Origin: Henckelia pumila
Lineage: Eukaryota > Streptophyta > Magnoliopsida > Lamiales > Gesneriaceae
Assembly (NCBI RefSeq): GCF_033568475.1
Contig: NC_133121.1
Span: 170,129,716 to 170,193,715 of the forward strand
Length of the DNA: 64,000 nucleotides
Reading direction: 5' to 3'
Positions 381 to 44,188 of this stretch are shown piece by piece; the first letter of the stretch is position 1, and each line of letters opens with the position of its first letter. The notes below the pieces were generated by a model. That model did no database searches and was not told the DNA's origin. It worked only from the letters and a program-made list of their open reading frames with translations. Made by a program: the position numbers and the translations under genes.

Positions 381-1988
381 ATGACTTCTTTCAACAGAAT
401 TCCTATGTTTTCTAAAGAAGAGTATGATGATTGGAAAATTCGCATGCAGGCACATCTTGCAGCACAGGATGATGACATGTTATATGTCATAACAGACGGT
501 CCTATCAAAATTATGAAGGTCAACCCAGCTCTAGCCAATGGTGCAGGACAAATGATTGAGAAACCAAGAGCTGAGTGGACCACTGAGGACAAAAAGAAGG
601 CCAATCTTGACAATGTGGCCCGGGACATCCTATACAAAACACTGGATAAGAATATGTTCAGCAAAATCAAGTCATGTTCCACAGCAAAGGAGATTTGGGA
701 GAAGCTCACTCAGCTATGTGAAGGGAATGACCAGACAAAGGAAAACAAGCTCACTTTGGCCATTCAAAAATATGACAACGCCAAAATGAAGCTAGGGGAA
801 ACCATGGCTGAATTTGATGAACGGTTCAGTAGTATCATCTGTGATCTTATTGCTTTAGGTAAAACTTATACTAACCGTGAAATTGCTGTGAAGGTTATGA
901 GAGCTTTACCCAAAGAATGGGAGATCAAGACAATGGCCATGAGAGAGTCAAAAGACTTAAGCAAGGTTGAACTGCATGATCTCTTTGCAGATCTCAAAGC
1001 CTACGAGTTCGAGCTCAACATGAGAACAGAAGATGAACCATCTACTTCTCAACCAACCAAGGCCTTAACCTCAACCGTGATATGTCCACCGGTCGAGGAA
1101 GCTCCAAAGAGATCAGCTGAGCAAATCAGCAATGAAGCCATGACACTCTTTGTCAAGAAATTTGGTAGATTTATGCGTAAAAACAATTCTAAATTTAAAA
1201 ATTATCATAAATCGGACCATACAATGGATGGTCCTACTTGTTTTAACTGTGGCAAGTCAGGCCACTTCATTGCAGACTGCACCAAGCCTAAGAACAATGA
1301 TCAGAAGCAATTCTCCGAAAGAAGAAGGGGTAAGGAGGATAAAAGGACGTTTAGAAAAGGAAGAGACCAAAGGGTTCTAGTAGCAGACGAAAGCAAAAGC
1401 AAGTGGGCTGAGTCTGACTCTGACAACTCCAATACCGGAAGCTCTTCAGATGACAGCGATGATGAAAAAGTGGAATGCCTTATGGCCGACATCGAAGAAG
1501 AAGCTGAGGAGGTATTTGACTTTGGCTCACCTGAATTTACTCACAGTGATTTAGTTACTGCTTTACACGAAATGGCTAATGAATACAAAGCATTATCCAA
1601 GGAGTTCGAGGAAGTAAAGGCAGAAAGAGCTGACCTAAAAGATAAGTCAAGAAAATCAAGCTGCATGCAGCAAAAAGAGCTTGATGGTCTTAAGGTCAAG
1701 CTAAGTCTGCTGGCTACTGAGAACGACACCTTGAAAAGAGTATTCCAAGCTACCTTGATTGAGAATAAAAAACTACTTGAAACCATCAAGGCTTGGAATA
1801 AATCTTCTATAACCATTGACAAGATTCAAGAAATCCAAAGACCGGTACATGATAAAACCGGTCTAGGGTTTGGAACAAATGAACAGTCTATGGAATCCTG
1901 TATTCAGTCAAGCCTGGACAAAGGCAATCTTAACAAAATAAGATTTGTCAGGTCCAGCACGATATATGAACACGATAAGTGCAGCTTT
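381..1988 (+). pseudogene. gag: Sirevirus gag, N-terminal part, split by a nested element
   Basis: The ATG at 381 lies 39 nt after the PBS. It opens 536 codons before the nested element begins at 1989; reading through would add a few foreign residues to a stop at 2034-2036. Visible features are an N-terminal capsid-like helical region (residues about 1-230), a CCHC zinc knuckle (CFNCGKSGHFIADC, about residue 286), an acidic serine-rich stretch, and a long coiled coil (about 395-480). Gag forms the cytoplasmic virus-like particle that packages element RNA. Before the insertion the frame continued at 11018; both parts are whole codons (1608 and 405 nt), so the insertion is the only break in this gene. 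SIRE-B at 27427 is the close homologue. Confidence 0.9.
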
Positions 1989-3855
1989 TGTAAGAGTAGG
2001 TGCCCAGTGAGCCAACTGTGTGGCTATGGGCTTTGATGACTCTTTGTATAAACAATCTTTTGTTTAATATTATTTACACTTTTATTAATGGCAATGACTT
2101 TATATTACTTCATATTGTTATATTATGATATACTATTGTTGTTTTGATAAAGACCTTGAATATACTATAGTGTATGTAAGATGTGGTAGAACATGGGGAT
2201 GTCTATCATGAAATACATCTTATAGTCACTGTATATTCTAAAACCGTTCCTAGTCGATTGAGCCGTCCGATAATAAGGATAAGGATCGCTCGAGTTTGAG
2301 ACTAGCATTTGCGATGCGGAGTACCACGTTTCATTGGTAGGGAACATGGAGATGTTCGAAGCATGCAAATGGATATTCATAGGATGAATAATCGAACTAC
2401 CCTATCCGGACTTTCCAAGTGGTTATCACTTATCGAGTGGATAAAGTCCGCGGTTTTGGTTGTACACCATTAGTCCTTACGACTTGAAACATCATGGAGA
2501 CTCTATATGCTAGTGTTGTGCTTTGACTCGTTTACCGACTCTATGGGGGTCATCAGGTGTCAAGATTGGGTACAGTTACGACACATATAGGAGTCAATGC
2601 ATTGTTGTCAAGGATTCACCACATACTTGCGAGTGTGGATATCCTATGCGATCTGAGGAGATATTAGTGTGACAAATCTCTGGCCAGAGTACTTGATGTG
2701 ATTTAAGAAATGGTTTCTTAGTAGCACATGCGATGTCACTAATTTGATCTTCAAGATGTATTGCATAGTTATCGAATCTTGAGCGACTCTCGATATACCA
2801 ATGGTTGTTGATTCGATCGGGATATTTGGATGAAGGGACCGTACTGTACGCTAACCAAAATCTACTGGTTCTTGTAGGCACTATCAGTGATACCTAGGGA
2901 ATCATGGGGCGATGTTGCTAGGCGCTTTACCTTGATTCGTTGGGCAAGTCGGAAAGTGTTGTTCCGAGTCACAAGGAGTTGTGAGCCCACGGCTAGCTGT
3001 ATCCCTGAACCATTGAGGGTCACACAGTGTAATGGAGTTTTAATCCCCGTTGAGATAGTTAAATTTAAAGAGTTAAATTTAATGAACTAAGGAGTTGGAC
3101 TTCTTAAATAAGAGTAAGGGAGTAGGATTTCCTAAAATGACATAGGGATGGACATTTTTGGAAACCACTGAATTCGGATTCAGGAAAATTTATTTTGACT
3201 TTAAAATGTGCAGAAATGGTTTCTGTGCACATTGGTGAAATCGGTTCATCAATCGGAGTCACGATGAATTTTATATTAATTTCTGAACGTGCGGGCTTTG
3301 CTTGTCGGGCCCTAGCTTATGACTAATGGGCCCTAAGGTGTTAGTGGCCTGCATTATAAATAAGTTATTGCAGTACAGAAATTACAGACAACAGGTCATT
3401 ATTTTGAGAGCAGAATTTTCGAAACCCTAGCCCCTTTCACTCTCACAATTCGGCCGCCCCTCCTTGCTCTGTCAGAGAATTTCCGGTCTGTGATTTTGAA
3501 TCGCAGTCAGGAATAACGAATCAGATTCGTTTAATCTCTTCGCAGAAAAACTTCTGATAGATTTTCTAGTGCAATCTGTCAGAGGGATTTAAACCCCATT
3601 CGTGGACCTGATTGAAGGAGTTCATCAGTTCCTGGGAGATACAAGAAGCGCAGAGAAATCTGTGTGGTGTCCAATAATCTCGCTTCGAGATTGAAGGTAA
3701 AATTTAATTAATTGTTATTTGAATTTTACACACACTTATAATTTAATCGTTAAACGGTTGATACCCACACTATGGAATTGTTCCATAATAAAATTTTTAA
3801 ACTTCCGCTGCACCGGGTATCAATCGTGATTGATCTGAACGCCAGTTTTCCAACA
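1989..3855 (+). repeat. 5' LTR of the Angela-type element
   Basis: Direct repeat of 9146-11012 with TG...CA ends. TATAAATA at 3355-3362 is a likely core promoter. Two GGGCCCTA words lie within 60 bp upstream of it and resemble TGGGCC (site II/TCP-type) promoter elements. ORFs inside the LTR are short and present in both copies, and I regard none as genes. Confidence 0.95.
3355..3362 (+). promoter_or_regulatory. TATA box in Angela 5' LTR
   Basis: TATAAATA, repeated at 10512-10519 in the 3' LTR, is preceded by GGGCCCTA words. It would start genomic RNA about 30 nt downstream; the start site itself is inferred. Confidence 0.6.
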
Positions 3856-3856
3856 G

Positions 3857-3868
3857 TGGTATCAGAGC
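3857..3868 (+). other. Primer-binding site of the Angela-type element
   Basis: TGGTATCAGAGC begins 2 nt after the LTR end (3855) and is complementary to initiator tRNA-Met. Confidence 0.92.
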
Positions 3869-3983
3869 CAGGTTGCTCAGATCAAACGATTGAATTAATC
3901 AATTGTACAAAATTTTTGAGTCTCGGTTTTTGAAACAAAATAAATATTTTTAAATAAAATTTTTTTTTTTTTCGGGGCAAAAC

Positions 3984-4213
3984 CCGGGCAGCGATTGGAT
4001 CGCTGCCCGGAGGGGGCGGCGATGGTCGCTGCCCCCGGGGGAGGCGCACGGCGCCGCCCAGGGCGGCGACCGTCGCCGCCCAGCGCAGCGCTCGGCGCCT
4101 CCCAGCGGCGGCACCAGGCGCCGCCAGGGCAGCAATTGTTGCTGCCCTAAGGGGGCAGCCGGGCTGCCCCCGGCCCGCGCCCCGGGTGCGGGCCGGCCCG
4201 GGAGTGTCCCGGG
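3984..4213 (+). repeat. GC-rich array of perfect hairpins with 3-nt loops
   Basis: Successive inverted repeats sit in an otherwise AT-rich leader. Stems and loops read: 3984-3995/3999-4010 (12 bp, loop TGG); 4012-4022/4026-4036 (11 bp with one G-T pair, loop TGG); 4043-4047/4051-4055 (loop ACG); 4061-4069/4073-4081 (9 bp, loop CCG); 4127-4135/4139-4147 (9 bp, loop TTG); 4151-4159/4163-4171 (9 bp, loop CGG); 4171-4178/4188-4195 (larger loop); 4197-4203/4207-4213 (7 bp, loop GTG). Each stem has a different sequence, so this is not a simple tandem repeat. It lies between PBS and gag, where packaging and dimerisation signals of retroelement RNA normally sit. That role is inference. Confidence 0.85.
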
Positions 4214-4442
4214 CGGCCCGTGGGAAAAATTAAATTTTTATTTAAAATTAATTTTAATGTGATAAAATTTTATTTTTGGTCCGGTCAAAAATTGTTTTTG
4301 ATTGGTTCACGAGATTTCGGATCGAATTGTTCGAGTCCGTAAATTTTAAAATTGATTTTTGGATAAATTTGAATTTTTGGAAAATTTTAATGTTTTATCC
4401 GTAAATTGAATTTTGAAATCAATTATTTTGGTACAATTGATG

Positions 4443-4590
4443 ATAAGATATGATCTTATGATATATTGAGTAAAATATGATTTTATTTGTAAAATTGGAT
4501 TTTATAGATAAAATATGATTTTATTTGATATAGAGATAAAATATGATTTTATATGTGAAATGAGATTTTATATATAAAATATGATTTTAT
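4443..4590 (+). repeat. AT-rich array of perfect hairpins with 3-nt loops
   Basis: At least six inverted repeats occur: 4443-4459 (ATAAGAT, loop ATG), 4471-4485 (TAAAAT, loop ATG), 4490-4504 (TAAAAT, loop TGG), 4508-4524, 4536-4552 and 4574-4590 (ATAAAAT, loop ATG). The architecture, a perfect stem with a triloop ending in G, is that of the GC-rich array 230 bp upstream, but the stems are A/T only. Confidence 0.8.
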
Positions 4591-5214
4591 CTTGTTTAAA
4601 TTTGAATTGCCACTGCATGTTATCCAATAAATTAATTTTGAATTAAATGTTATTGGATAAGGATGATCGATTGCCATGACCAATTTTGTAGGTGTATGTT
4701 AGGAATTTACATTTTGTTTTTATTGTTGTTGGTTTTATTAATGGGCCTGGTTTATGGCCCGATATGAATGTCATATGTAATAAAAGTGGGCTTGGTTTAT
4801 AGCCCGTTTCCACCCCTAAAAATGTATCCCCTACTTGTCATTGTTATTTATTGTAAATGCATTAGATGTAGTGGGAGATCAAGATTTGAAGATGGTGGGC
4901 CCAGCAGACAATAAAGACTGAAGAAATGTAAATTGGAAGCACATGTAATAGGATTGCATTGCATACTGCATATTACCTAGGATTGGACTAAGACCCGTGA
5001 TTGGCAACCACGGGTCAATTAGAAATGGAATCGATCATCCTATATAATATTTGATATTATGATTGTATGCATGTTTAGACATAATTGCGTGAATCCGGCA
5101 AGCATGCAATAAATTGAATATGATGAGACAAATAATTTTATAATTAAAAATTCCTCATTTTAAATATGATTTAAAATTTATATCAAGATAAATAAAGGAA
5201 ATTTAAATTTGTTT

Positions 5215-5605
5215 AAATGTTCCCACCTTCCATCAACGGTCAATGTATGTGATGCTACCCGCGGATACGGTCCGGCTCATATTATTGGGGGGGCCCGTCC
5301 GTCGGAAAGCTGTACATTGGATCGACAAATGTTGTAAGTTGGGTGGAACTCCCATGGGATCGGCTCATATTATTGGGGGATCCACATGGCGACCGTCCAT
5401 CACAACTTAATATTGATGGGTCATCTTGACATGTCACTATAAACGGCGTCATATTATTGGGCCCTTATTGGACATGAGGTAAATACATGGGGGTTGCTTT
5501 GGAAGCAATTGGGCTCTACCTTTTGAGAATTATGGTTGGCTGATATTATTCGGGACCATAAGTTTGTCAATTGGACTCCATGTTCTCACTAAGGAAAAGT
5601 TTCTC
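5215..5605 (+). repeat. Four-unit hairpin array with conserved loop and differing stems
   Basis: The core TCATATTATTGGG or a close variant recurs at 5278, 5364, 5449 and 5540 (TGATATTATTCGGG in the last), about 85-90 bp apart. Each core is flanked by complementary arms that differ from unit to unit: CGGATACGGTCC with GGGCCCGTCCG (unit 1), CCATGGGATC with GGATCCACATGG (unit 2), CATGTC with GACATG (unit 3), TTATGGT with ACCATAA (unit 4). In units 1 and 2 the pairing extends outward, for example CAATGTA with TACATTG, and TAAGTTGGGTGGA with TCCATCACAACTTA. It lies in the leader, just ahead of the gag remnant. Confidence 0.8.
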
Positions 5606-5752
5606 GTTTTCACTAGAGGGTAGTGAAATCGTTAAAATAGTGGGAGTGAGATTCATAAAATTAAATTCGCCTATTTTATGTCTTAGTAAATTGCTTAAAC
5701 AATCATCGATAATTGTCTGTTTTATCTCAGTAATCCACATGTTTCTGTTCTC

Positions 5753-6060
5753 CAACAAAACAAACTTATTGACGCAAACAATACAGAATGATTCCATAAG
5801 TTAAGATTGTCCTAAGTTCGGAAAAAGATTTTCTAAGTGTTAGAAAAGGCTTCTCCGAAAACAGCCCCGGCTGATGTAACTACCGAAAGGTTGGCCGAAT
5901 TAGAGAAATGGTTGGACCATGATCTCAAGGCCAAATGTTACATGCAAAATTGGACAAGTCTAAACAAGTTTGCCATCACTGCAAGAAACCCGGTAATTGG
6001 AAACGTAACTGCAAGGAATACCCCAAGCAGTTGCGAACTGCAAAGGGTATGTTTTACATT
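5753..6060 (+). pseudogene. gag: Angela gag remnant
   Basis: From 5753 a translation typical of the Angela gag N-terminus can be followed (QQNKLIDANNTE, then HKLRLS), but stop codons interrupt it. A second piece from about 5837 (VLEKASPKTAPADV...) runs to about 5945. The sequence then jumps to a zinc knuckle (CHHCKKPGNWKRNC, about 5977-6018) in which the expected His is Asn. About 150-200 residues of capsid are missing compared with full-length family members, a figure from family knowledge rather than measured here. This copy cannot make a working particle protein. Confidence 0.75.
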
Positions 6061-6321
6061 GAAATAAATGTTTTTCTTAATACTACTTCTTGGGTATTGG
6101 ATACCAGATGTAGATCTCATATTTGCAATGAGTTGCAAATGATAACAAGAAGTAATAGGATAAGGATGGGTGAGACCCAGTCAAGGCTCGGGAATGGTTC
6201 CAGAGTTAAATCCATAGCTATGGGAAATATTTATTTTTTGCAGAACGGTTTTAAGTTACTTTTGATAGATGTTTTATTTGTTCCAGATTTAATTAAAACA
6301 TTATTTCTGTTTCTATGCTAG
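6061..6321 (+). pseudogene. Angela aspartic protease remnant
   Basis: The frame that carries the zinc knuckle continues into a retropepsin-like segment (WVLDTRCRSHICNELQ). The family active site is Asp-Thr/Ser-Gly; here Gly is replaced by Arg, which should abolish proteolysis. The frame ends at a TAG (6319-6321), and the downstream integrase is in another frame, so a small indel near 6303 separates protease from integrase. Confidence 0.75.
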
Positions 6322-9131
6322 ATAGAGATGGTTATTCTTGCAATTTTGTGAATGAGATTTGCAATATTTACAAGAATGAATGTTTAATTGGAAATGGACA
6401 ATTTGAAAACGATCTATACAACTTAAAACTAAAAGATGTTCCAATGAATTATGTTGATAAACCGGCTACAACAAACAAAAGGAAAAACGATAGTCAAAAC
6501 CCGGCAAACCTATGGCACGCTAGGCTAGGTCATATTTTCTCAAGAAGGATGAACAAGCTAGTGGGAGAGGGCATGTTTGATATGTCTGATATTAACTCTC
6601 TACCTACTTGTGAATCTTGTCTAAAAGGAAAAATGACTAAATCTCCTTTTAAGGGGAAACCTGAGCGTAGACAAAATCTGTTGGATTTGATCCATATAGA
6701 TGTTTGTGGTCCATTTAGAGTAGAGACTCAACATGGCCACACCTACGTCATTACCTTTACTGATGATTATTCAAGGTATGGGTATTTATATTTAATGAAA
6801 TATAAGTCTGAAGCATTTGAAAAGTTCAAAGAATTCAGGGCTGAAGTAGAAAACAAGCTAGGTAAAAGTATTAAAGCACTTCGATCGGATCGAGGTGGAG
6901 AATACTTGAGTACCGAGTTTTTGGACTATCTGAAAGAGAATGGGATTCTCTCTCAGTGGACTCCTCCTATGACACCACAGCTTAATGGTGTATCGGAGCG
7001 TCGTAATCGAACTTTGTTGGACATGGTTCGATCTATGATGAGCTTCACTGAGCTTCCACCTTCGTTTTGGGGCTATGCGCTTGAAACGGCGGTATTGTTG
7101 TTGAACAACGTCCACACTAAAGCAGTGGACAAAACACCATACGAGTTATGGAATGGCAAAGCTCCTAAGTATTCGTACTTGAGGATTTGGGGATGTCCTG
7201 CTTACGTGAAGCGGACAGTGGGAGATAAGTTGGATAGTCGATCCAGCTTATGTTATTTTGTAGGGTATCCGAAGAATTCAATCGGATATTATTTCTATTA
7301 TCCTGCTGAAACAAAGGTGTTTGTTTCTAGGAATGCCACCTTCTTGGAGAAGGAGTTCTTATTGGATAAGAAAGGCGAGATGATGGAACTCGAAGAAGTT
7401 CGAGAAGAACCCGAAATACAAAATAACGATCCTACACCTCAGGAACCATTGCTGGACACGCCTGCACCTAGAAGATCCGAAAGGACTTCTAGACCTCCAG
7501 TTCGATATGGTCTTCTTCTTGAAGGGGATCAAGATGAACCCGACATTGGATGTGATCCAAGAAACTTCAAGGAAGCAATTTCTGATGCGGATTCGAATTT
7601 ATGGCTTGAAGCTATGCAGTCAGAATTGGATTCGATGCATACAAACCAAGTTTGGTCTTTAGTAGATCCTCCCGATGGAATTGTTCCAATAGGGTGTAAA
7701 TGGATCTACAAGAGAAAGCTTGGGCCTGATGGTAAGGTATTGACCTACAAGGCGCGATTGGTGGCGAAAGGTTATACTCAAAGGCAAGGAGTTGACTATG
7801 ATGAAACCTTTTCACCAGTTGCAATGTTCAAGTCCATAAGAATCCTGATTGCCATAGCTGCATGGTATGACTATGAGATATGGCAAATGGATGTGAAGAC
7901 TGCTTTTCTTAATGGAGACATTAAGGAAGAAATCTATATGAAGCAGCCTGAGGGGTACACATCCATGGGAAGCGAGCATAAGGTATGCAAGCTTCAGAGA
8001 TCAATTTATGGTCTAAAACAAGCATCAAGAAGTTGGAACCAGAAATTTGATGAAACAATAAAAGATTTTGGTTTCATCAAGAACCCGGAGGAACCTTGCG
8101 TGTACAAGAAAGTAGTTAAGGATGCGGTGACATTCTTAGTACTTTATGTTGATGACATCCTACTCATTGGGAATGATGTAGGGATGTTGCAGTCAACAAA
8201 GATATGGTTATCAGGTAGATTTTTGATGAAGGATTTGGGAGAGGCATCCTACATTCTTGGGATACAGATCTATAGAGATAGGTCTAAGAGAATGATAGGA
8301 CTCACTCAATCAACCTACATCGATACCATATTGAAACGGTTTTCAATGGATGGGTCCAAAAGAGGACATCTACCCATGTGTCATGGAGTTTCTCTATCCA
8401 AGTCTATGTGTCCCAAGACTGATGCAGAGATAGAGAATATGACACATGTACCATATGCGTCAGCTATAGGTAGTATCATGTATGGGATGATATCTACCAG
8501 ACCGGATGTAGCATTTGCTCTGAGTGTCACGAGCAGATATCAGTCTAATCCTGGTCAAATGCATTGGAAAGCCGTGAAGGACATTCTTAAGTACTTACGA
8601 AGGACTAAGAATATGTTCATGGTTTATGGAGGACGAGAACTCAAATTGGAAGGCTATACCGACTCTAGCTTCCAAAGTGATGTGGATGACTCGAAGTCAA
8701 CCTCTGGATTTGTGTTCATGCTCAATGGCGGTGCTGTCTCTTGGAAGAGTTCCAAGCAGGACACCACAGCGGATTCCACCACTGAGGCTGAATACATTGC
8801 AGCATCAGCTGCTGCTAAAGAGGCCGTTTGGATGAGGAAGTTCGTCCAAGAGTTGGGCGTCATTCCTGAATTTGTTGGTCCAGTCCCGGTGTACTGTGAC
8901 AACACGGGTGCCGTTGCTCAAGCAAAGGAACCAAGGTCTCATCAAAGATCCAAACACGTACTGAGGAAATACCACATAATCCGGGAGATTGTGGAAAGAG
9001 GAGACATCATTGTCGAACGAGTGGCCTCTGCAGACAATATCGCTGATCCGCTTACTAAGCCCTTGCCAGGACCATTGTTTGACAAACATCGCGAAGCAAT
9101 GGGTCTACGTAGTATGACTAGTTGGCTATAG
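6315..9131 (+). CDS. pol: Angela-type integrase-reverse transcriptase-RNase H polyprotein (intact ORF)
   Basis: The 938-codon ORF carries integrase, RT and RNase H in copia order. The integrase zinc motif is visible (HARLGH then CESC, residues about 68-105), and the catalytic D,D-35-E residues lie in IHIDVCGP, LRSDRGGEY and NGVSERRNRT. RT has the LYVDDILLIG box (about residue 614), and RNase H has TDSSF and TEAEY segments. After RNA copying, these activities make and insert cDNA in the nucleus. The ATG used is only the first in this open frame; in a functional element the protein would be released from a Gag-Pol precursor. Here the upstream protease and gag are damaged. The stop at 9129-9131 abuts the polypurine tract. 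Confidence 0.92.
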   Translation: MLDRDGYSCNFVNEICNIYKNECLIGNGQFENDLYNLKLKDVPMNYVDKPATTNKRKNDSQNPANLWHARLGHIFSRRMNKLVGEGMFDMSDINSLPTCESCLKGKMTKSPFKGKPERRQNLLDLIHIDVCGPFRVETQHGHTYVITFTDDYSRYGYLYLMKYKSEAFEKFKEFRAEVENKLGKSIKALRSDRGGEYLSTEFLDYLKENGILSQWTPPMTPQLNGVSERRNRTLLDMVRSMMSFTELPPSFWGYALETAVLLLNNVHTKAVDKTPYELWNGKAPKYSYLRIWGCPAYVKRTVGDKLDSRSSLCYFVGYPKNSIGYYFYYPAETKVFVSRNATFLEKEFLLDKKGEMMELEEVREEPEIQNNDPTPQEPLLDTPAPRRSERTSRPPVRYGLLLEGDQDEPDIGCDPRNFKEAISDADSNLWLEAMQSELDSMHTNQVWSLVDPPDGIVPIGCKWIYKRKLGPDGKVLTYKARLVAKGYTQRQGVDYDETFSPVAMFKSIRILIAIAAWYDYEIWQMDVKTAFLNGDIKEEIYMKQPEGYTSMGSEHKVCKLQRSIYGLKQASRSWNQKFDETIKDFGFIKNPEEPCVYKKVVKDAVTFLVLYVDDILLIGNDVGMLQSTKIWLSGRFLMKDLGEASYILGIQIYRDRSKRMIGLTQSTYIDTILKRFSMDGSKRGHLPMCHGVSLSKSMCPKTDAEIENMTHVPYASAIGSIMYGMISTRPDVAFALSVTSRYQSNPGQMHWKAVKDILKYLRRTKNMFMVYGGRELKLEGYTDSSFQSDVDDSKSTSGFVFMLNGGAVSWKSSKQDTTADSTTEAEYIAASAAAKEAVWMRKFVQELGVIPEFVGPVPVYCDNTGAVAQAKEPRSHQRSKHVLRKYHIIREIVERGDIIVERVASADNIADPLTKPLPGPLFDKHREAMGLRSMTSWL

Positions 9132-9135
9132 GGCA

Positions 9136-9145
9136 AGTGGGAGAT
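9136..9145 (+). other. Polypurine tract of the Angela-type element
   Basis: AGTGGGAGAT lies immediately before the 3' LTR (9146). It is the expected plus-strand primer site. Confidence 0.85.
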
Positions 9146-11012
9146 TGTAAGAGTAGGTGCCCAGTGAGCCAACTGTGTGGCTATGGGCTTTGATGACTCT
9201 TTGTATAAACAATCTTTTGTTTAATATTATTTACACTTTTATTAATGGCAATGACTTTATATTACTTCATATTGTTATATTGTGATATACTATTGTTGTT
9301 TTGATAAAGACCTTGAATATACTATAGTGTATGTAAGATGTGGTAGAACATGGGGATGTCTATCATGAAATACATCTTATAGTCACTGTATATTCTAAAA
9401 CCGTTCCTAGTCGATTGAGCCGTCCGATAATAAGGATAAGGATCGCTCGAGTTTGAGACTATCATTTGCGATGCGGAGTACCACGTTTCATTGGTAGGGA
9501 ACATGGAGATGTTCGAAGCATGCAAATGGATATTCATAGGATGAATAATCGAACTACCCTATCCGGACTTTCCAAGTGGTTATCACTTATCGAGTGGATA
9601 AAGTCCGCGGTTTTGGTTGTACACCATTAGTCCTTACGACTTGAAACATCATGGAGACTCTATATTCTAGTGCTGTGCTTTGACTCGTTTACCGACTCTA
9701 TGGGGGTCATCAGGTGTCGAGATTGGGTACAGTTACGACACATATAGGAGTCAATGCATTGTTGTCAAGGATTCACCACATACTTGCGAGTGTGGATATC
9801 CTATGCGATCTGAGGAGATATTAGTGTGACAAATCTCTGGCCAGAGTACTTGATGTGATTTAAGAAATGGTTTCTTAGTAGCACATGCGATGTCACTAAT
9901 TTGATCTTCAAGATGTATTGCATAGTTATCGAATCTTGAGCGACTCTCGATATACCAATGGTTGTTGATTCGATCGGGATATTTGGATGAAGGGACCGTA
10001 CTGTACGCTAACCAAAATCTACTGGTTCTTGTAGGCACTATCAGTGATACCTAGGGAATCATGGGGCGATGTTGCTAGGCGCTTTACCTTGATTCGTTGG
10101 GCAAGTCGGAAAGTGTTGTTCCGAGTCACAAGGAGTTGTGAGCCCACGGCTAGCTGTATCCCTGAACCATTGAGGGTCACACAGTGTAATGGAGTTTTAA
10201 TCCCCGTTGAGATAGTTAAATTTAAAGAGTTAAATTTAATGAACTAAGGAGTTGGACTTCTTAAATAAGAGTAAGGGAGTAGGATTTCCTAAAATAACAT
10301 AGGGATGGACATTTTTGGAAACCACTGAATTCGGATTCAGGAAAATTTATTTTGACTTTAAAATGTGCAGAAATGGTTTCTGTGCACATTGGTGAAATCG
10401 GTTCATCAATCGGAGCCACGATGAATTTTATATTAATTTCTGAACGTGCGGGCTTTGCTTGTCGGGCCCTAGCTTATGACTAATGGGCCCTAAGGTGTTA
10501 GTGGCCTGCATTATAAATAAGTTATTGCAGTACAGAAATTACAGACAACGGGTCATTATTTTGAGAGCAGAATTTTCGAAACCCTAGCCCCTTTCACTCT
10601 CACAATTCGGCCGCCCCTCCTTGCTCTGTCAGAGAATTTCCGGTCTGTGATTTTGAATCGCAGTCAGGAATAACGAATCAGATTCGTTTAATCTCTTCGC
10701 AGAAAAACTTCTGATAGATTTTCTAGTGCAATCTGTCAGAGGGATTTAAACCCCATTCGTGGACCTGATTGAAGGAGTTCATCAGTTCCTGGGAGATACA
10801 AGAAGCGCAGAGAAATCTGTGTGGTGTCCAATAATCTCGCTTCGAGATTGAAGGTAAAATTTAATTAATTGTTATTTGAATTTTACACACACTTATAATT
10901 TAATCGTTAAACGGTTGATACCCACACTATGGAATTGTTCCATAATAAAATTTTTAAACTTCCGCTGCACCGGGTATCAATCGTGATTGATCTGAACGCC
11001 AGTTTTCCAACA
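9146..11012 (+). repeat. 3' LTR of the Angela-type element
   Basis: It is 1867 bp, the same length as the 5' LTR. About eight single-base differences were counted by eye, in the stretches near 9281, 9464, 9666, 9673, 9720, 10295, 10417 and 10550. It is followed by the GCTTT duplication and resumption of SIRE-A gag. Confidence 0.95.
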
Positions 11013-11017
11013 GCTTT

Positions 11018-33416: not shown

Positions 33417-36369
33417 TGTAACGACCCTCACTACTAGGCTATCAGACTATAATTAAAATAAAGGAAAATTACGGATTTTTAAAAATTTTGCCATGACCTA
33501 TTTGTAAAACAAATAAGCCATCAAGACTCAAACAGCAATTTAAATAAGGAAAAAAAATTGACTTCAAAACTTAAGTGCGTTAAACATAAACATGCAATCC
33601 TAGTAACCACCTCCCGGTTACAGCATAAAGTAAACTAAAGCATTTAAAATTAATTCCAACGATAATCATAAACTTGCAAAAGCGGAAAACGTACTTCAAA
33701 ACATAAGCTGTAGCACAGGGAATGCACATCCTGGCTATAAATACTACAAGATCTCAAATAATACTTCATTATTACAAATTTGATAACTGTGCGGAAACAT
33801 AAACTGAAAGGAAGCAACGGTCACTGGGCCTCGCACTACCGATGGCCTCATCCCAGTAGATCACGACCCTCCGTCTCCTCCACAAAATCCTCACCTGCAA
33901 ACATTCAAGCATAGTGAGTCTAAAGACTCAGCAAGCATAACTAGGATAATAACAAGGGTTTAAAATGCGTGATGCAAAAACTCAACTTAAACTGTAATAT
34001 GCATGAAACTAGAAAGATATAGAAATCATGCATTAATGAACTCACACTAAGATAAACTTTAACTTTCATAACATTCAACTTAGACTCATGCATAACTGAA
34101 AGACTGACATCAATGCAAAACGAGTCAACTAAAATTGTGAAACTTTAACTTTTAAACTTTTCTTTACTTTTTCCTCTTAGAAATCCGATCCCTGATTTGT
34201 GACCCTCTGTTTCGATCATGATCATGGCTGCAGTGCACTATGCCGGCAAGACGACGAGATTTCTCCCGACGAACTTAACCCCTCTATGGCAAGGAGACCG
34301 AGATGCCTCCCGATCCCACATTGCCCCTCTGTGGCAAGGGTAAACAAGATGTCTCTTGCTCCTTGCCTAACCTCTATAACCTCTTGGTGAGTAGACCGAG
34401 GCATCCCCCGGCCTAGCAACACCCCTCTTGTCACAAACAGATCACTTCATTCAAAAATATTTGCTTTCTTTTCCCTTTTCATTTATAAAGACTCAACTCA
34501 TACATTAAATGGCATGCAAACAAGTAAGCTTCCTTTTTCTTTATTAAACTCAAGAACACGTCAAATGCACACGAATAAGCAATCTTTAAGACATGAGACT
34601 CGAATCGAAAATGTGAGTTTAAGGTGGATGAGTGGCTGCCCCTAAGTCCAAAGAAGACAACTTACCCAACAAAATTCTCAAACTTGACTTAACTCGAGCA
34701 AGTAAACCGAAAAACCCTTAACTTTGTCATATCTTAACCAAAACCCGTCCCGCTTGAACCGACACCTCATAAACACTCCAAATTATCCCTAGGACCAGAA
34801 AGTAACCTCCAAGGATCACCCGAACATTACAAACCAAAAACATTCCCGGACAGCCCCTTATACTCTAAAAATTCTGCACTTACACCACAAACTTAAAAGA
34901 CTCATAACTTACTCAATACTTATCCGATTCGGGCCCATTTTATATCGACGCGACCACAACATCATGAACTTTACCATGGAATAGCCTAACCCTGCACAGA
35001 CCTCAGCCACGACACTGCCCTGCCCCGTGAACAGTGCTGCCCTGCACACTCACAACATCCAACTTACCTCTAACTCAAGAATTCAACCCCATAACTCTCC
35101 TTCCTCAACTTTTCTCCATACCAAACAACCAAACACCTCAAATAACCTCTCTTAGAACTTTTCCCAAACACTTGGGCTACACTCAATCCACACTTACACA
35201 ACACATATCAAGAACATCAATAATTAACCATCAAAACTCCAAAATGTTGAACAATCAATCAAGACCAATGCAAGACCAATAAATACTTCAACATCAATTA
35301 AATTTCAGCCCCTACACATGCAACATTTCGAAAATTAGGTCCATATACAATCTGAAATTTCGAATTTTGGCAAGAACAACCATATAATTCCATGTCAATG
35401 CACATATACTCAACATTAAATCACATAAACTCAACTCCCTAACATATTTAGAAAAAATCAGCCCCTAAACATGAAAAATTCGAAACCCTAACCTTCTAAC
35501 AACATGCATTCTCGAAAATATTGCAAGAAATCATAAGGGTGGGGGTAGATATTGCTTGAATGTGAGCCCAAAGGAGTAGCTACACTTGCCTTTCAACCTT
35601 TTACCCAAAAATTCAAAAATAAGGGGAGATGGAGGGTGGAACTCTTGGTCAAACTCCAAGCTAGGCTCCTTGTGGAGCTCCTCCGGCAGTGGGGACGGCG
35701 GCAGGCGGCGGCGGACGGCAGCTGGGCGGCGGCAGGAGGGGGGGCGGCGGCTTCTTCAAGGGAGAGGGGAGAAGGGGCGGCTAGGGTTAGGGTTTTGATG
35801 TTAGGGTTGGGTCTTGATTTTTAAATTGAAGTGTTTTAATGATAGTGTAAATTAAAAGTGTAGTGTATTGTGTGTAGTGTTTTAAAATTTCACTTGTACT
35901 AGCAAAAGTACTACTTGTACTATTAAAACTTTTTACCTCAAACTTTTTGCTATTTTCAAACTTCTAAATTTAAAATTTCAACTCTCAACATTTTAATTGA
36001 AATTCCACTAACCCGGATTTAATAAAATCCTATTTTATGGAAAATTTAGGAAATAGCCCAAGAAAATGATAAAATTGCTTTTTGACCCCTAAAAATTCAA
36101 AATTTGCATTTTTGGCCAAAACCCCTCTTTTACCTCTAACTTAAAATCTTAAAATTAAAAATCTTGAAAATAAACCACCGAAGCCCACCGTCGTCGCCTG
36201 CCTGGATAAAAATTACTAACTAAACAGTTCAAGGCATTTAATTCAAATAAGTCACGCAAGGCTAACTTTAACTTAAACTTAAACAATTAAATTCAAGAAA
36301 TTTAAAGATATAAATACTGAAAATAATTTTTGGCATGATTTTAGAATTTTAGAAGTTCTTGGCGTTACA
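33417..36369 (-). repeat. 3' LTR of the Tekay-type element (in element orientation)
   Basis: 2953 bp, TG...CA ends, near-identical to 41230-44183. It contains a GC-rich purine patch (35690-35790) with short telomere-like AGGGTTAGGG words. ORFs within are repeated in both LTRs and are not gene-like. Confidence 0.95.
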
Positions 36370-36383
36370 ATTCCTCCTTCCCT
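36370..36383 (-). other. Polypurine tract of the Tekay-type element
   Basis: AGGGAAGGAGGAAT on the minus strand, directly before the 3' LTR terminus. Confidence 0.85.
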
Positions 36384-41229: not shown

Positions 41230-44183
41230 TGTAACGACCCTCACTACTAGGCTATCAGACTATAATTAAAATAAAGGAAAATTACGGATTTTTAAAAATT
41301 TTGCCATGACCTATTTGTAAAACAAATAAGCCATCAAGACTCAAACAGCAATTTAAATAAGGAAAAAAAATTGACTTCAAAACTTAAGTGCGTTAAACAT
41401 AAACATGCAATCCTAGTAACCACCTCCCGGTTACAGCATAAAGTAAACTAAAGCATTTAAAATTAATTCCAACGATAATCATAAACTTGCAAAAGCGGAA
41501 AACGTACTTCAAAACATAAGCTGTAGCACAGGGAATGCACATCCTGGCTATAAATACTACAAGATCTCAAATAATACTTCATTATTACAAATTTGATAAC
41601 TGTGCGGAAACATAAACTGAAAGGAAGCAACGGTCACTGGGCCTCGCACTACCGATGGCCTCATCCCAGTAGATCACGACCCTCCGTCTCCTCCACAAAA
41701 TCCTCACCTGCAAACATTCAAGCATAGTGAGTCTAAAGACTCAGCAAGCATAACTAGGATAATAACAAGGGTTTAAAATACGTGATGCAAAAACTCAACT
41801 TAAACTGTAATATGCATGAAACTAGAAAGATATAGAAATCATGCATTAATGAACTCACACTAAGATAAACTTTAACTTTCATAACATTCAACTTAGACTC
41901 ATGCATAACTGAAAGACTGACATCAATGCAAAACGAGTCAACTAAAATTGTGAAACTTTAACTTTTAAACTTTTCTTTACTTTTTCCTCTTAGAAATCCG
42001 ATCCCTGATTTGTGACCCTCTGTTTCGATCATGATCATGGCTGCAGTGCACTATGCCGGCAAGACGACGAGATTTCTCCCGACGAACTTAACCCCTCTAT
42101 GGCAAGGAGACCGAGATGCCTCCCGATCCCACATTGCCCCTCTGTGGCAAGGGTAAACAAGATGTCTCTTGCTCCTTGCCTAACCTCTATAACCTCTTGG
42201 TGAGTAGACCGAGGCATCCCCCGGCCTAGCAACACCCCTCTTGTCACAAACAGATCACTTCATTCAAAAATATTTGCTTTCTTTTCCCTTTTCATTTATA
42301 AAGACTCAACTCATACATTAAATGGCATGCAAACAAGTAAGCTTCCTTTTTCTTTATTAAACTCAAGAACACGTCAAATGCACACGAATAAGCAATCTTT
42401 AAGACATGAGACTCGACTCGAAAATGTGAGTTTAAGGTGGATGAGTGGCTGCCCCTAAGTCCAAAGAAGACAACTTACCCAACAAAATTCTCAAACTTGA
42501 CTTAACTCGAGCAAGTAAACCGAAAAACCCTTAACTTTGTCATATCTTAACCAAAACCCGTCCCGCTTGAACCGACACCTCATAAACACTCCAAATTACC
42601 CCTAGGACCAGAAAGTAACCTCCAAGGATCACCCGAACATTACAAACCAAAAACATTCCCGGACAGCCCCTTATACTCTAAAAATTCTGCACTTACACCA
42701 CAAACTTAAAAGACTCATAACTTACTCAATACTTATCCGATTCGGGCCCATTTTATATCGACGCGACCACAACATCATGAACTTTACCATGGAATAGCCT
42801 AACCCTGCACAGACCTCAGCCACGACACTGCCCTGCCCCGTGAACAGTGCTGCCCTGCACACTCACAACATCCAACTTACCTCTAACTCAAGAATTCAAC
42901 CCCATAACTCTCCTTCCTCAACTTTTCTCCATACCAAACAACCAAACACCTCAAATAACCTCTCTTAGGACTTTTCCCAAACACTTGGGCTACACTCAAT
43001 CCACACTTACACAACACATATCAAGAACATCAATAATTAACCATCAAAACTCCAAAATGTTGAACAATCAATCAAGACCAATGCAAGACCAATAAATACT
43101 TCAACATCAATTAAATTTCAGCCCCTACACATGCAACATTTCGAAAATTAGGTCCATATACAATCTGAAATTTCGAATTTTGGCAAGAACAACCATATAA
43201 TTCCATGTCAATGCACATATACTCAACATTAAATCACATAAACTCAACTCCCTAACATATTTAGAAAAAATCAGCCCCTAAACATGAAAAATTCGAAACC
43301 CTAACCTTCTAACAACATGCATTCTCGAAAATATTGCAAGAAATCATAAGGGTGGGGGTAGATATTGCTTGAATGTGAGCCCAAAGGAGTAGCTACACTT
43401 GCCTTTCAACCTTTTACCCAAAAATTCAAAAATAAGGGGAGATGGAGGGTGGAACTCTTGGTCAAACTCCAAGCTAGGCTCCTTGTGGAGCTCCTCCGGC
43501 AGTGGGGACGGCGGCAGGCGGCGGCGGACGGCAGCTGGGCGGCGGCAGGAGGGGGGGGCGGCGGCTTCTTCAAGGGAGAGGGGAGAAGGGGCGGCTAGGG
43601 TTAGGGTTTTGATGTTAGGGTTGGGTCTTGATTTTTAAATTGAAGTGTTTTAATGATAGTGTAAATTAAAAGTGTAGTGTATTGTGTGTAGTGTTTTAAA
43701 ATTTCACTTGTACTAGCAAAAGTACTACTTGTACTATTAAAACTTTTTACCTCAAACTTTTTGCTATTTTCAAACTTCTAAATTTAAAATTTCAACTCTC
43801 AACATTTTAATTGAAATTCCACTAACCCGGATTTAATAAAATCCTATTTTATGGAAAATTTAGGAAATAGCCCAAGAAAATGATAAAATTGCTTTTTGAC
43901 CCCTAAAAATTCAAAATTTGCATTTTTGGCCAAAACCCCTCTTTTACCTCTAACTTAAAATCTTAAAATTAAAAATCTTGAAAATAAACCACCGAAGCCC
44001 ACCGTCGTCGCCTGCCTGGATAAAAATTACTAACTAAACAGTTCAAGGCATTTAATTCAAATAAGTCAAGCAAGGCTAACTTTAACTTAAACTTAAACAA
44101 TTAAATTCAAGAAATTTAAAGATATAAATACTGAAAATAATTTTTGGCATGATTTTAGAATTTTAGAAGTTCTTGGCGTTACA
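41230..44183 (-). repeat. 5' LTR of the Tekay-type element (in element orientation)
   Basis: 2954 bp. Differences from the other LTR seen near 41777, 42418, 42598, 42968 and 44069, plus one extra G in the run near 43550. Confidence 0.95.
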
Positions 44184-44188
44184 ATTCA

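Follow-up and report, generated by a model that had tools for sequence, protein, structure and literature searches.

The 64,000-nucleotide stretch of the Henckelia pumila (Gesneriaceae) genome analysed here, called the window in the following, contains a young Ty1-copia retrotransposon. In its leader, between the primer binding site (PBS) and gag, a row of four hairpins with the apical loop UAUUAU occupies positions 5229-5590; in the gag-bearing relatives of this copy the gag start lies downstream of this array. The array is a conserved RNA structure, kept via compensatory change in the sense strand, and it is set apart by a recurring loop on covarying arms and not by stability as such. As to its function, we propose, with a probability of about 0.5, that the array serves as a multivalent, family-specific packaging signal bound by Gag.

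Architecture and folding of the array

The array comprises four copies of a 19-nucleotide (nt) core, with loop starts 88, 84 and 92 nt apart (Table 1). The initial annotation of this locus had described a shared core in units 85-90 base pairs (bp) apart; the four cores are there, while the spacing is as given here. The complementary arms that it had reported to differ between units are likewise present, though listed out of order, the pair CGGATACGGTCC/GGGCCCGTCCG being that of unit 1. UAUUAU is borne on an apical stem of 3-4 bp. Beneath this stem, units 1 and 2 have a GG/G internal loop, unit 4 has a GG bulge, and unit 3 is joined differently. Units 1 and 2 are enclosed by a closing helix, P1, whose eight pairs are canonical in 22-24 of 24 sequences, with 5235/5414 changing from A-U to G-C in seven.

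Folding of 5200-5620 with RNAfold, which had been suggested as a check, yields -138.8 kcal/mol, lower than any of 100 shuffled sequences (mean -119.0, standard deviation (sd) 5.0). Raw stability is nevertheless not extreme (z -1.5 against a GC regression over 421-nt segments of the 64 kb). When hairpins with 18-nt arms were searched blindly for any recurrent loop word of 4-6 nt, UAUUAU emerged with a score of 53.4, as compared to a shuffled maximum of 22.8, so that 0/150 shuffles reached the score of the window. When arms of 20 or 30 nt are considered, the 3' arm of the same unit is the best partner for every 5' arm (4/4); with arms of 10 nt, the own partner is preferred by only two of the four 5' arms. 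The 3' arm of unit 3 is less selective, its pairing with the 5' arms of units 1 and 2 being as good as or better than that with its own partner. Comparison of positions 3857-6000 with Rfam gave 12 matches at E values of 1 or below; none of these lies over 5229-5590, and none attains its gathering score.

Covariation across subfamilies

We searched the H. pumila genome (884,658,702 bases, 133 contigs) with a pattern of two loops at the right spacing and a following base unlike that of the main family, which gave 241 forward and 241 reverse matches, while the reversed control pattern gave none. Among the matches listed, 20 arrays with different arms and six longer leaders, all from one contig (C1), were picked by eye. 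Subfamilies with different arms thus exist in this genome; we label them A2, B, C, E and F, beside the main group. A whole-array search listed 40 further places, and twelve E/F arrays among them were included as well.

In an alignment of 18 sequences, consisting of the window and 17 of the 20 arrays (L088, L091 and L096 excluded), the consensus structure contains 97 pairs, and 96.2% of 1736 cells pair, as compared to 32-46% when the structure is slid by 1-3 columns. Two-sided changes are found in 33 pairs (152 cells), while the slid controls show them in 5-9 pairs (6-23 cells). The observed values were reached in 0/500 shuffles within pairs; the number of pair types alone is ordinary, 422/500 shuffles being as high. 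Because the consensus structure came from the same alignment, a second test was built on the fold of the window alone, with a null model in which the observed changes per column are simulated along the tree from the window sequence as start. For 24 sequences, the canonical share is 0.902 compared to 0.819 (sd 0.017) under the null, with 213 double-changed cells compared to 72.6 (maximum 137) and 37 double-changed pairs compared to 22.4 (maximum 34), each reached in 0/300 runs. For 36 sequences, with P1 included, the corresponding values are 0.884 compared to 0.804, 412 compared to a mean of 123.5 (maximum 234) and 41 compared to 27.0 (maximum 37), each reached in 0/500 runs, and slid versions of the structure give a canonical share of 0.320-0.479 and 85-193 double-changed cells.

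Taken singly, units 1, 2 and 4 stand out from the null in their canonical share (reached in 2/500, 1/500 and 0/500 runs, respectively) and in their double-changed cells (0/500 each), although the number of double-changed pairs in unit 1 is ordinary (243/500). For P1, the canonical share is reached in 3/500 runs and the double changes in 199/500. The suggestion in the initial annotation that a constant loop with compensatory stems marks a selected RNA structure is hence borne out by whole-structure covariation across subfamilies, as judged against the tree-based null.

Sense RNA versus DNA

Whether RNA or single-stranded DNA forms the structure had been left open. The single-sequence fold is more stable in the sense (-138.8) than in the antisense strand (-106.1), and alifold gives -60.9 for the sense alignment compared to -33.0 for the antisense one, with column-shuffled means of -22.5 and -14.0, respectively (60 shuffles each). 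Furthermore, G-U pairs occupy 286 cells and A-C 26, in a structure predicted with G-U allowed, which favours G-U. Together, the strand evidence points to RNA rather than DNA. We regard it as extremely improbable that the array is a feature at the DNA level, that is, a set of cruciforms, protein-binding palindromes or the plain decay of a tandem duplication. Units recurring at 84-92 bp do resemble tandem duplicates, and the antisense alignment also beats its own column shuffles; yet the arms vary between units, 5' arms of 20-30 nt favour their own partners, the changes are compensatory, and both the strand asymmetry and the excess of G-U over A-C speak for RNA. Palindromic motifs repeated in non-coding parts of plant copia elements are described for Sireviruses in the accessible sections of PMC2829016, which would fit a DNA-level feature. 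Unlike the Sirevirus repeats described there, which are constant palindromes, the present array lies in the leader and has variable arms and a constant loop.

Constancy of the loop

The search pattern left 39 loops free to vary; TATTAT is found in 33 of these and, of the remaining six, five carry an identical change in unit 4 of lineage C. In the 12 arrays retrieved by whole-array similarity, 47 of the 48 positions read ATATTATT; since the loops contributed to the similarity, this sample is biased towards the loop. Across five leaders (main, A2, B1, C and F), the mean identity is 0.740 in the array, as compared to 0.506 and 0.621 in the upstream leader. A contrast within the family (99.6% in the array, 87-98% in its flanks) was dropped as evidence because the 30 copies concerned had been picked by array similarity and copies chosen by Pol similarity lack it.

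Arrays in other copia families

The blind search was also applied to the 600 nt before gag of other copia families, with one sequence per family and 150 shuffles: G1, G2 and G4 from the H. pumila genome, and L017, L018 and L019 from bacterial assemblies, the L019 stretch having been selected by its repeats, with its gag start not located. Four of these families carry arrays with loops of their own, each with 0/150 shuffles reaching the observed score and, in the first three, before gag: G4 (loop CUAUA; three units 86 and 84 nt apart, with the stems CUCC/GGAG, CACC/GGUG and AUUC/GAAU), L017 (CCUUC), L018 (CAAA) and L019 (AACGU, two units). The four units of L017 all fold and have a GG/A internal loop at the corresponding position. 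As for controls, Pol gave 51/150 and the long terminal repeat (LTR) 21/150, and two distant stretches contained no candidate.

Plant-type copia elements occur in assemblies named Streptomyces, Solirubrobacter and Kitasatospora (L017, L018, L019, L055 and L056), two of the records being filed as plasmids (NZ_CP115302.1 and NZ_CP115454.1); they are probably plant contamination. A search with Pol found no relative among viral contigs and no match among phage records, and the leader DNA had no match among plasmids. Pol matched four plasmid records, the best two with copia frames that start at the record edge and so have no leader. The spaced-loop pattern was met in 16 stretches of viral contigs, which have just one ATATTATTGG-type site each and do not resemble a leader; we read these matches as chance.

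The host element and its gag-less relatives

Self-BLAST aligns 1988-3856 with 9145-11013 at 99.57% identity over 1869 bp, and a 5-bp target duplication, GCTTT, can be read from the flanks of the element at 1984-1988 and 11013-11017. The Pfam domains rve (125-221 of the Pol frame) and RVT_2 (444-688) give the Ty1-copia order and the copia reverse transcriptase profile. A zinc-knuckle-like CHHCKKPGNWKRNC was recognized by eye in the open reading frame (ORF) 5935..6321. Judged from ORFs and repeats of the window, the element is inserted in another copia-like element. A second pair of direct repeats (33417-36373 and 41230-44187; 2.96 kb, 99.8% identical) perhaps represents the LTRs of another young element.

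Table 1. Positions of the element, its leader and the hairpin array in the window.
Feature	Position	Strand	Details
5' LTR	1989..3855	+	Self-BLAST; TG..CA ends
PBS	3857..3868	+	TGGTATCAGAGC, exact match
Possible long-range helix	4660..5041	+	4660-4672 with 5029-5041, 13/13 complementary, mid-leader
Closing helix P1	5229..5420	+	5229-5236 pairs with 5413-5420; encloses units 1 and 2
Hairpin unit 1	5237..5324	+	Loop 5280-5285; arms CGGATACGGTCC/GGGCCCGTCCG
Hairpin unit 2	5336..5408	+	Loop 5368-5373
Hairpin unit 3	5430..5476	+	Loop 5452-5457; weakest unit
Hairpin unit 4	5485..5583	+	Loop 5544-5549; side hairpin 5493-5509
3' splice-site-like tract	5716..5730	+	TCTGTTTTATCTCAG; T-rich stretch ending CAG or TAG
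gag remnant	5731..5968	+	Start codon lost, ~520 bp gone at ~5948-5968; compared with 29 other copies
ORF, Pol beta-barrel domain (protease region)	5935..6321	+	
Open Pol frame	6315..9131	+	Integrase, then reverse transcriptase
3' LTR	9146..11012	+	Self-BLAST; ends read from flanks

The window copy and nine of the 29 other close copies (10/30) lack the gag start, show the gap of ~520 bp and carry the array, whose presence in gag-less copies is partly built in because all 30 copies were found through it. The gag start is kept in 19 of the 29, and L083 could not be classed. The gag remnant of the gag-less subfamily is clearly unlike the gag of the other copies, while the leader is nearly identical; in a subfamily that has multiplied, this contrast suggests recombination. 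Such a multiplied gag-less subfamily is reminiscent of BARE2, to which we return below.

Other features of the leader

A T-rich tract ending in CAG or TAG lies 190-195 nt past the unit 4 core in 8/8 leaders, directly before the gag start where one exists, and is also found before gag in L017 and L018. When scored with a rough matrix, the site ranks first or second, and 5716-5730 may, as far as sequence can tell, act as a splice acceptor. One could imagine that the hairpins bind a host factor which prevents the splicing of part of the RNA or promotes its export. We consider this control of splicing or export quite unlikely: the acceptor-like site speaks for it, but no splice donor is clearly conserved, the best candidates differing between lineages with a weak AG/GTGTAT-like site aligned across leaders, and loops private to each family are hard to square with one shared host factor.

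The leader is also rich in upstream start codons, with 32-43 ATGs between the PBS and unit 1 in the seven leaders that have a PBS and 44 in leader E, there counted from the start of the retrieved stretch, in which no PBS was found. The array could aid ribosome shunting or internal entry past these AUGs to gag, or to Pol in the gag-less copies. This would agree with its place before gag wherever a gag start was read (the window family, L017, L018, G1 and G4), and shunting through structured leaders rich in upstream ORFs is described for plant pararetroviruses in the accessible part of PMC5902531. Still, neither shunting nor an internal ribosome entry site has an obvious need for a single loop that differs between families, and the acceptor-like site before gag offers an alternative way past the AUGs, so that we hold such control of translation to be unlikely, though worth keeping in mind.

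Further structure is predicted elsewhere in the leader. A partner for the possible mid-leader helix, with 10-13/14 matches, is present in 6/8 leaders, and lineage B shows a matched change; the other two leaders, E and F, did not fit the search word and lay outside this test. Two further hairpins with the loop GUUUA lie 45 nt apart at 4750-4800. Beside the PBS, a GC-rich block (3941-4200; up to 85% G+C in 100-nt segments) contains strong hairpins and is the most variable part between close copies; in L130, it is a run of seven 22-bp units (4-157). The motif TAGTGGGAG occurs twice in the window leader and twice in L017; L018 and L019 lack GTGGGAG. Another motif, AGTGGGAG, is found near the array in distant families (window 4869-4877 and 5638-5646, L017 1681-1855 and L132 near 1523).

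Discussion

Among the functions offered in the initial annotation, namely packaging, dimerisation, translation control and binding of a Gag or host protein to the loop, packaging through Gag fits the data best. We propose that the nucleocapsid of the element's own Gag binds the array in a multivalent manner, and that this binding would lead to selection and packaging of the element's own genomic RNA. Since the loops differ between families, the array might serve as a family tag where many copies compete within the same cell, and gag-less copies would retain it because of their need for Gag in trans. With less weight, the acceptor-like site between array and gag suggests that splicing may remove the array from the RNA that is translated but not from the RNA that is packaged, as in retroviruses. 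Dimerisation fits badly: a dimer linkage by kissing loops would be in line with the position in the leader and with the palindromic CUAUAG formed by the G4 loop and its closing base, but UAUUAU, CUAC, CCUUC and CAAA are not self-complementary, which makes it very improbable.

Several results weigh against our interpretation of the array, either as a structure or as a packaging tag. When folded alone, units 1-4 give z values of -2.3, -4.3, -0.5 and -3.5, so that units 1, 2 and 4 fold better than shuffles and unit 3 is weak; in unit 3, the canonical share is reached in 212/500 null runs and the double-changed cells in 18/500. The covariation check of the R-scape type proposed in the initial annotation likewise has a divided outcome, in that the whole structure covaries while an R-scape-like test of single pairs finds only 2/112 at E<0.05, and no pair is significant over all column pairs (best E 0.2); we attribute this to the few independent lineages. 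As unit 3 and the single pairs are weak, the case rests on the structure as a whole. In the blind search, a fifth control from the same leader (4300-4899) also gave 0/150, and two families did not pass, G1 being marginal (7/150) and G2 negative (25/150). Regarding conservation, the stretch from array to gag is at least as conserved between subfamilies as the array (0.795), and within the main family, represented by the window and three copies chosen by Pol similarity, the array shows no excess (0.989 compared to 0.976-0.991 in the leader). The way in which close copies were retrieved limits what the gag-less ones can tell and, as the gag-less window copy still has an open Pol frame, a role in Pol translation would also retain the array. 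The lack of a clearly conserved donor adds to these points.

The nearest analogues may be the retroviral packaging signal psi and the repeated hexaloops of coronaviruses. Psi is a structured RNA between the PBS and gag and is expected to persist in mobilised gag-defective copies. The array is a structured RNA in the same place; unlike psi, it consists of four one-loop hairpins at a near-regular pitch, with other loops in other families, and its binding by Gag is what we infer here. In coronavirus SL5, two or three hairpins near the 5' end share the hexaloop UUYYGU, and a packaging role has been proposed but not proven, according to the accessible part of PMC10705266. Like SL5, the array repeats one six-base loop; however, virus and loop are unrelated, and the SL5 hairpins described there sit in one four-way junction and not in a row (PMC10705266).

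The nearest biological parallel is the pair BARE1/BARE2, also Ty1-copia, in which BARE2 of barley no longer has the start codon of gag and uses the particles of BARE1 for its packaging, as stated in the accessible part of PMC3735527. The BARE system differs in that the gag lesion is an 8-bp deletion and in that an intron lies inside the reading frame, and the main text of PMC3735527, as far as accessible, contains neither the term stem-loop nor secondary structure and describes no array. A search of the full-text literature, covering titles and abstract openings and leaving subscription papers mostly outside, found no description of such arrays in plant copia leaders.

LTR retrotransposons make up a large part of many plant genomes, and what their Gag recognises in its own RNA has, to our knowledge, been little studied. 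In more general terms, and as a tentative idea that we rate below even odds, plant copia families might mark their RNA with an identity tag, namely a series of hairpins, often ~85 nt apart, with a family-private loop before gag that is read by the family's own Gag. The loop would co-evolve with Gag when families split, genomic RNAs would thereby be sorted, and gag-less satellite copies could persist by keeping the tag. If this is true, the natural loop variants of other families would make Gag recognition directly testable by binding, and the gag-less copies would offer a natural comparison.
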